Shown piece by piece: positions 36,995 to 38,932 of a DNA stretch of 64,000 nucleotides. The translations under genes and the position numbers were made by a program. The first letter of the stretch is position 1, and every line of letters begins with the position of its first letter. The notes beneath the pieces were generated by a model. The model saw only the letters and a list, made by a program, of their open reading frames with translations. It did no database searches and was not told where the DNA came from. Source of the stretch: Gemmatimonadaceae bacterium (GTDB lineage Bacteria > Gemmatimonadota > Gemmatimonadetes > Gemmatimonadales > Gemmatimonadaceae). The stretch spans positions 62,001 through 126,000 of the forward strand of contig JAUQWM010000015.1 of NCBI GenBank assembly GCA_030835125.1, given 5' to 3'.

Positions 36995-38299
36995 TCACAC
37001 CAGAGCCAGCACGAGGTCGTTCACGTTGGTTCCGGTCGGGCCGGTCCTCAACAGGGCGCCCGCGGCCTGCAGGGCGTCGTACGATGCATGGTCCCTCAGC
37101 GCGATGACCGGATCGACGCCGGCATCGAGCACGCGCGCCCACGTCGTCGCATCCACGATGGCACCCGCGACCTCTGTCGGACCATCGCGACCGTCGGTGC
37201 CGGCCGCGAGCACGGTGATTCCGGTCGCGGCGCGCTCATGAAGGACCTGCGCACAGGCCAACGCGAATTCCTGGCAGCGGCCTCCGTGGCCAGCGCTCGA
37301 ACCGAGGGTCACCGTCGTCTCTCCGCTCCAGATGATGCACGTCGGCGGTGTGGTGCGCGCGCGCTCCGCGAGCGCGACCCCGAAGCGGCGGCCGGCGATT
37401 GCCGCTTCGCCGGACAGGGCCGGTTCGACCACCTCGACCACGCAGCCGGACCGGCGCGCTTCGTCAGCCGCGCCACGCTCCGCGTGCGTCCGGTCGAGGA
37501 TGACCCGGACGGAGGTCGTTGCGAATCGTGCATCGTCGACGCTGGGCAGGTCGGGCAGCCGGCCGCTCGCCATGTCGTCGATCACGCGGCGCGCCGCGGG
37601 TGGTAGGGATGCCCACGCGCCGGCCTCAATCGCTCGCGCGCGGGCATGCGAGGCGGGAGACGGGTCCGGGGCGCAAGGGCCGGAGGCGATCGCCGAGGGG
37701 TCATTGCCGGGCACGTCCGACGCGATCAGGCAGTGGATCCGCCGCGCGCGCAGCGCGAGGGCAAGGCGGCCTCCGCCAAACCGCAACAGCCGCTTGCGCA
37801 GTGCGTTCATGACCTCGATGTCGGCGCCTGACGCGAGCAGCGCCGAGAATGCGCCGCGCAGGTCCGCGTCCGGGAGTCCGGCAATCGGGGATGCGACGAG
37901 GCTGGTGGCGCCGCCGGACACCAGGACCACCGCGTCGGCGTCGGCGGGCACTGCCTCGGCGAGCACGCCGAGGCGGTCCGCCGCAATCGACGACTGCGCG
38001 GCAGGGACGGGGTGGTCGCCACTGACCGCCGGGAGGCCGTGCCTCGCGTCCGGGTCTTCCGCATGTGCCACGACGATCCCGCCCCCGATCCGGACTCCTC
38101 GCTGGTGCAGCGCCGCCACCGCGCCGGAGGCCATGGCATGTGCGCCCTTCCCGATCGCGATCACCCAGGCTGCCGGCGCCAGGTCGTCGGTGGCCAGCAC
38201 TGCCTGACGAGTGGCGTGTTCGGGACCTGACGCGGCGACCGCGGCGCGGAATGCACGCTCCAGGACCGCGCCGGGTTCGGGGATCACGGGCAGAAACAC
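36995..38299 (-). CDS. glycerate 2-kinase (MOFRL family)
   Basis: The protein of about 434 residues matches bacterial glycerate 2-kinase of the GckA/TtuD type, with IAIGKGAHAMASGA, SGDHPVPAA, VVLVSGGATSLVASP, ASDVPGNDPSAIASGP and the C-terminal MOFRL region (GGRCQEFALA, AGTDGRDGPTEVAGAIVD). It phosphorylates D-glycerate to 2-phosphoglycerate. The GTG at 38299 lies inside the stem of the upstream terminator, so a GTG at 38287, four codons later, is an alternative start. Confidence 0.9.
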   Translation of the reverse strand: MFLPVIPEPGAVLERAFRAAVAASGPEHATRQAVLATDDLAPAAWVIAIGKGAHAMASGAVAALHQRGVRIGGGIVVAHAEDPDARHGLPAVSGDHPVPAAQSSIAADRLGVLAEAVPADADAVVLVSGGATSLVASPIAGLPDADLRGAFSALLASGADIEVMNALRKRLLRFGGGRLALALRARRIHCLIASDVPGNDPSAIASGPCAPDPSPASHARARAIEAGAWASLPPAARRVIDDMASGRLPDLPSVDDARFATTSVRVILDRTHAERGAADEARRSGCVVEVVEPALSGEAAIAGRRFGVALAERARTTPPTCIIWSGETTVTLGSSAGHGGRCQEFALACAQVLHERAATGITVLAAGTDGRDGPTEVAGAIVDATTWARVLDAGVDPVIALRDHASYDALQAAGALLRTGPTGTNVNDLVLALV

Positions 38300-38328
38300 G
38301 TCGCCCCGGCGCGGGGCCGGGGCGACGT
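38298..38328 (-). terminator. terminator of the peroxiredoxin gene
   Basis: A perfect 12-base-pair stem (ACGTCGCCCCGG at 38298-38309 with CCGGGGCGACGT at 38317-38328) and seven-base loop lies ten bases past the stop of the peroxiredoxin gene. On the reverse strand it is followed by GTTTCT. It overlaps the possible GTG start of the glycerate kinase gene. Confidence 0.7.
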
Positions 38329-38338
38329 CAGGTCGAGG

Positions 38339-38932
38339 TCAGCCGCCGGGCGGCGCCGGGGGCGGATTGAGCCTGTCAATCTCGGCTCCGAGCTCGTCAT
38401 AGGCATCCTGAACGGTGACCCGGAACGGAAGCGCCTTGTACGTGACGCGCCCGGTCTTGTCGATGACATACAGGTGCCGGTTGTTCGTCTTCCGCTGCTC
38501 GTTGAGCGCCTGGTAGGAACGGCTCACCGTGCCGCCGGAATCCGCCATCACCAGGATCGGCGTCTCGAGCTCGCGGAACCAGCTGACGAGCGTGGTGTCG
38601 GGGTCGACGCTGACTCCGAGGACCACGACGTCGCGTCCGTTGTTGAAGAGCGTGGCGTACTGATCACGGTACGCCTCCATTTGCACCGTTCAACCACGCG
38701 TTCGCGCCTGGGGGAAGAACGCGAGGACGACGGTCTTGCCGCGGAAGTCCGACAGGCGCTGGGCCGTGGCGAGCTTGCCGTAGCGCGTGATGCCGGTGAA
38801 CTCGAAGTCCGGCGCCATCTCGCCGACCTTCGGACCGACCTCGGGCTGCGCCGCCGGCTGCTGCGCCCGCGCCATCATCGGCAGGGCGACCAGTGCGGCG
38901 ACGGCGATCGCGCTCGAACCTGCGTATCTCAT
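38339..38932 (-). CDS. exported peroxiredoxin-like protein, probable selenoprotein (UGA at codon 81)
   Basis: Read through one in-frame TGA (38690-38692), this is a 197-residue AhpC/TSA-family protein. It has a signal peptide (AIAVAALVALPMMARAQQ), then APDFEFTGITRYGK and VVLAFFPQARTRG, and the TGA falls exactly where peroxiredoxins have the peroxidatic Cys (FFPxxxTxGCT). The frame continues with TVQMEAYRDQY, VVVLGVSVDPDTTL and HLYVIDKTGRV without any shift. A SECIS-like stem-loop starts 14 bases after the TGA. Selenocysteine is therefore more likely than a broken gene. It would reduce peroxides in the periplasm. AGGGG lies before the ATG. Confidence 0.8.
38654..38675 (-). promoter_or_regulatory. 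candidate bacterial SECIS element
   Basis: GGCGTAC and GTACGCC form a perfect 7-base-pair stem around the 8-base loop CGTGATCA on the reverse strand. The loop has G at its second position, 23 bases past the TGA. As I recall the published bacterial SECIS consensus, a G in the first two loop bases at 16-37 bases from the UGA is required, and this fits. Confidence 0.65.

Follow-up and report, generated by a model that had tools for sequence, protein, structure and literature searches.

Selenocysteine (Sec)-containing peroxiredoxins have been known since the description of PrxU and are listed as a family whose motif is PxxxTxxU (PMC13188914; PMC1088965; PMC1794560). Among the selenoprotein-rich bacteria of an early survey, those that had Sec-peroxiredoxins were largely anaerobic members of the Deltaproteobacteria and Clostridia (PMC1794560). 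PrxU of Eubacterium acidaminophilum and the COG1225 Sec-peroxiredoxins from the Sargasso Sea share with the Gemmatimonadota protein analyzed here the same fold, Sec as the peroxidatic residue in a TxxU motif, and a bacterial SECIS element whose apical loop contains a G (PMC13188914, PMC1088965). The Gemmatimonadota protein appears to differ from this type in that it is predicted to be exported, has a mature domain without Cys, and is encoded with a lineage-specific, near-invariant SECIS element; the Pro of the motif is often lost in its relatives. Its matches to the NCBIfam PrxU and BCP equivalogs were far below the cut-offs (for PrxU, NF040737, 50 bits against a cut-off of 270 bits).

BCP/PrxQ thiol peroxidases resemble the Gemmatimonadota protein in motif context (FxPxxxTxGC/U-T) and in fold (Z 22.2), but the latter lacks the resolving Cys that these enzymes have five residues past the peroxidatic position, a residue that a Sec-containing BCP from the same genome retains (GUTVEAC). 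AhpE of Mycobacterium tuberculosis, a 1-Cys peroxiredoxin, has one of the closest folds (Z 21.9, 148 residues aligned, 28% identity) and likewise a single redox residue; AhpE uses Cys, whereas the protein described here has Sec and a predicted signal peptide. AhpE is cytosolic and takes mycothiol/mycoredoxin as its reductant. In the openly accessible literature we found no description of Gemmatimonadota selenoproteins and nothing relevant on periplasmic 1-Cys Sec-peroxiredoxins.

The window (the whole 64,000-nt stretch of Gemmatimonadaceae DNA that was analyzed) carries the exported-peroxiredoxin frame on its minus strand, from 38932 to 38339; it encodes 197 amino acids when an internal TGA is read as Sec (U) and ends in a TGA stop. 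The translation reads MRYAGSSAIAVAALVALPMMARAQQ...TVVLAFFPQARTRG-U-TVQMEAYRDQYATLF...NNRHLYVIDKTGRV...PPGG before the stop, with MRYAGSSAIAVAALVALPMMARA followed by QQ at the N-terminus and a core of FFPQARTRG-U-TVQMEAYRDQY. The first-pass annotation had placed a signal peptide, FFPQARTRG, a TGA at 38690-38692 and TVQMEAYRDQY in one frame; all of these matched, and the strand, unstated there, is minus. Residues 1-23 (38864..38932, minus strand; MRYAGSSAIAVAALVALPMMARA, then Q) form a predicted Sec-type signal peptide. The N-termini of homologues are hydrophobic as well and have in common an end resembling AxA before Q, by eye a typical signal peptide, and from this reading the protein is predicted to be exported to the periplasm.

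A G+C-rich inverted repeat, a possible terminator, was read from the sequence at 38298..38328 (minus strand). The repeat is strong and separates the peroxiredoxin gene from the glycerate kinase gene, whose start it immediately precedes. A terminator scan made no call there, for which a short T tail is the probable cause. Across the 64-kb window, an Rfam scan gave no match at the gathering threshold and a tRNA search found none.

We assembled homologues from a search of 60 relatives and from 80 further loci in named genomes, for a total of 119 distinct members. Close homologues in the 60-relative search mostly had exactly one internal TGA, and in every family member inspected the codon aligned with the TGA at 38690..38692 (minus strand, codon 81) was TGA, TGC or TGT (97 TGA and 22 Cys codons among the 119). 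The claim that the TGA sits precisely at the peroxidatic Cys codon was thus borne out. The homologue comparison that the first-pass annotation proposed, Cys or TGA at this codon, left the Sec reading standing: both were found, and the Cys relatives nearly all lacked a conserved hairpin.

A single base change converts TGC to TGA, so a Cys-type gene could in principle have been disabled by mutation or misread in sequencing. The 97 distinct homologues, from independent assemblies, share both the TGA and a downstream hairpin, and the frame on either side of the TGA is under protein-level constraint. We therefore give this explanation almost no credence; the TGA homologues, together with a TGA-plus-hairpin pattern found in 167 of 395 genomes of the phylum, refute a pseudogene or a sequencing error. 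The earlier argument that an intact frame speaks against decay held up on the same homologues and their constrained flanks. The gene, seemingly truncated by the TGA, very probably encodes a real exported Sec-peroxiredoxin.

The hairpin lies at 38654..38675 (minus strand), with stem arms at 38675-38669 and 38660-38654 and a loop at 38668-38661 (CGUGAUCA). Folding reproduced the structure given in the first-pass annotation: a perfect 7-bp stem (GGCGUAC with GUACGCC) and an 8-nt loop beginning 14 nt past the TGA, with a G at loop position 2, which is nucleotide 23 past the TGA. The folding energy was ordinary for the composition (z -0.7; 46 of 200 shuffles folded equally well), so the window sequence alone does not prove the hairpin, and we did not use energy as evidence. 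What sets the hairpin beyond chance is its conservation in the TGA homologues and a covarying outer pair. All seven pairs form in 96 of the 97 distinct TGA homologues vs 2 of the 22 Cys homologues. Six of the pairs are all but fixed among the TGA forms, while the outermost varies (G-C in 58, U-A in 23, C-G in 15 and unpaired in 1); its two bases are the third positions of two codons, and both sites are synonymous. The 96 of 97 sequences paired at this position compare with a shuffle mean of 46 and a maximum of 62 (kinship ignored), and shifting the 3' arm by one base reduced pairing in the TGA forms from 0.999 to 0.085.

Codon usage pointed the same way. Third-position identity in the Sec forms was 0.98 for codons 6-11 after Sec vs 0.56 for codons 14-35, and the corresponding values in the Cys forms were 0.65 and 0.62. 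Within the hairpin, Sec forms used CGU and GAU almost exclusively, whereas Cys forms favored CGC and GAC. Because both signals were seen in Sec forms only, the constraint acts on the RNA and does not extend beyond the hairpin, which on this comparative evidence is a functional RNA, a predicted SECIS element. One Cys homologue (L062, genome G056) from a genome without selA still folds into a hairpin of seven pairs where the SECIS element would lie, perhaps as a relic of one or by chance. In all matches from one genus (G012, G092, G138 and others) the SECIS loop was CGGGATCA instead of CGTGATCA. SelB may be different in that genus; a divergent tRNA-Sec was ruled out by an ordinary tRNA-Sec in 7 of 11 genomes.

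The genome of the window (G000; 4.48 Mb, 99% complete) contains the Sec machinery: selA (C28:69834-71156, 545 bits), selB (C48:37960-39786, 336 bits), selD (C59:10457-11377, 365 bits) and tRNA-Sec (C59:10267-10359, 69.8 bits; called by ARAGORN as tRNA-SeC with anticodon tca). All four are the genes that had been named earlier as a check on the Sec reading. The selD gene (L049:1501-2421) lies directly beside the tRNA-Sec gene (L072:1264-1360) and has its own in-frame TGA (RCAGUAAKLG), the known Sec site of SelD; SelD is itself a predicted selenoprotein in this genome. A second Sec-peroxiredoxin gene in the genome, with a TGA at L071:5340-5342 (C52:60339-60341, minus strand), is of the BCP/PrxQ type (FYPRSDTPGUTVEAC) and has no signal peptide by eye. 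Its Sec is peroxidatic with the resolving Cys retained, and the TGA is also found in relatives L073-L077. A third peroxiredoxin type with a TGA at the peroxidatic position (FYPGDFTPGUNRQLSAVRDE) occurs at L079 and L080, in G047 and G037; in G037 we found selB, and neither selA nor a strong tRNA-Sec.

An open frame through a TGA cannot by itself separate Sec from other readings, such as a reassigned code or the insertion of Trp or Cys by near-cognate readthrough. Several observations stand against these: the peroxiredoxin gene itself stops at a TGA, the genome has all of the sel genes, the TGA form tracks selA and keeps the hairpin, and the other in-frame TGA codons examined in the genome also fall at redox positions. 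Translation of the codon as another amino acid is very improbable as a result, and a reassigned TGA code is ruled out by the gene's own TGA stop and the presence of the sel genes.

The link to selA was seen across genomes. By hand count in 60 genomes, selA was present in 34 of 36 Sec-form genomes and in 7 of the 24 others (Fisher p = 1.1e-7, kinship ignored). The two Sec-form genomes without selA are incomplete assemblies (91% and 80%), both with tRNA-Sec. In one genus, a genome with selA (G055) has the Sec form and a genome without selA (G054) the Cys form. The Gemmatimonadota Cys homologues (such as L052, L059 and the first copy of L061) belong to the same exported family and are about 38-50% identical, but they have a TGC or TGT codon, no conserved SECIS element, and mostly come from genomes without selA. 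At L061, L111 and L113, a Cys copy and a Sec copy of the exported peroxiredoxin stand next to each other in tandem within a single genome.

The TGA-plus-hairpin pattern was found in 68 of 138 genera, and a backward-read control pattern matched in no genome row from the same phylum genomes. All 80 named loci were from Gemmatimonadota except for one contig labelled Acidobacteria (gp6). That contig (L143) has the Sec form and is nested within Gemmatimonadota on the tree; wrong binning or transfer could account for it. The suggestion of an exported selenoperoxiredoxin was supported, with export as a prediction, and could be refined: the family is widespread in Gemmatimonadota and lacks a resolving Cys.

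The window protein matches Pfam AhpC-TSA (1.8e-26), and its AlphaFold2 model (mean pLDDT 85) aligned with BCP, AhpE and Prx structures at Z about 22; Pfam, model and structure search together place it in the peroxiredoxin fold with an AhpC-TSA/Redoxin domain. The window copy holds the full motif PQARTRGU, i.e., Pxxx(T/S)xxC with U for C, including Pro74 (38711..38713) and Thr78 (38699..38701), both on the minus strand. Arg152 (38477..38479, minus strand) is invariant in both alignments (A1 and A2) and lies at the place of the catalytic Arg of peroxiredoxins. In the model, Sec81 stands at the N-terminal end of the helix that bears the peroxidatic residue in peroxiredoxins. Beyond the Sec/Cys position, no other Cys was found in the mature domain in any of the 119 homologues. 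The family thus has no resolving Cys, which separates it from the 2-Cys class of BCP/PrxQ and makes the protein a '1-Sec' enzyme with a 1-Cys-type layout. The homologues show that Sec81 is the only redox residue of the predicted mature enzyme, which is free of cysteine.

We hold with high confidence that this gene encodes an exported peroxiredoxin in which UGA 81 is decoded as Sec under the direction of the hairpin, and which would act as a single-Sec peroxide reductase; we infer both Sec insertion and peroxidase activity from sequence comparison. No observation spoke against Sec insertion. On the comparative evidence, SelB and tRNA-Sec would insert Sec at UGA codon 81, directed by the downstream hairpin, and the signal peptide would send the protein to the periplasm. 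There, Thr78 and Arg152 would hold the selenolate of Sec81, which would reduce H2O2 or an organic hydroperoxide. Because no resolving Cys exists, we propose that the selenenic acid is resolved externally, either by a thiol or by a thioredoxin-like protein of the periplasm, in the manner of AhpE and other 1-Cys peroxiredoxins. The likely role would be peroxide defense of the cell envelope. Neighboring genes offered no clue to a redox partner or reductant, as no conserved redox gene stood out; aconitase and amidohydrolase-type genes were recurrent neighbors, and linkage to them is unlikely.

Sec81 might instead act on other substrates, with the selenoprotein serving mainly as an envelope thiol/selenol oxidoreductase or redox relay. 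The single redox residue would suit such a role, and the replacement of the universal peroxiredoxin Pro in most Sec relatives could mean altered chemistry. However, Thr78, Arg152 and the peroxiredoxin fold are retained and the window copy has the full PxxxTxxU motif, and we regard this role as unlikely, favoring the peroxide reductase.

The Pro of PxxxTxxC/U, near-universal in peroxiredoxins, is kept in 22 of 22 Cys members and in 14 of 97 Sec members, including the window copy. The other 83 Sec members have Phe (42), Tyr (33), Val (3), Ile (3) or Ser (2). Sec and Pro each changed about five times on the tree. In independent contrasts of Sec against Pro loss, one to two of three supported pairs were concordant and none opposite, too few for significance. 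With so few events on the tree, the association is not significant by independent pairs and serves as a lead. It is possible, though we put it forward tentatively, that Gemmatimonadota have a distinct, ancient class of envelope peroxiredoxin with one Sec and no Cys in which the switch to selenium went along with loss of the Pro, giving an undescribed active-site mode.

Compared with known Sec-peroxiredoxins, the features that appear different are predicted export, the lack of Cys, the SECIS element, the spread in Gemmatimonadota and the loss of Pro. Standard annotation likely truncates the gene at the TGA throughout much of a major soil phylum, which would hide a peroxide-defense enzyme. An exported enzyme with Sec as its only redox residue would be a clean system for determining how a peroxiredoxin gains from selenium. 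The family offers natural Sec/Cys pairs, some in tandem in one genome, and with the proline change alongside they make the contribution of selenium testable.
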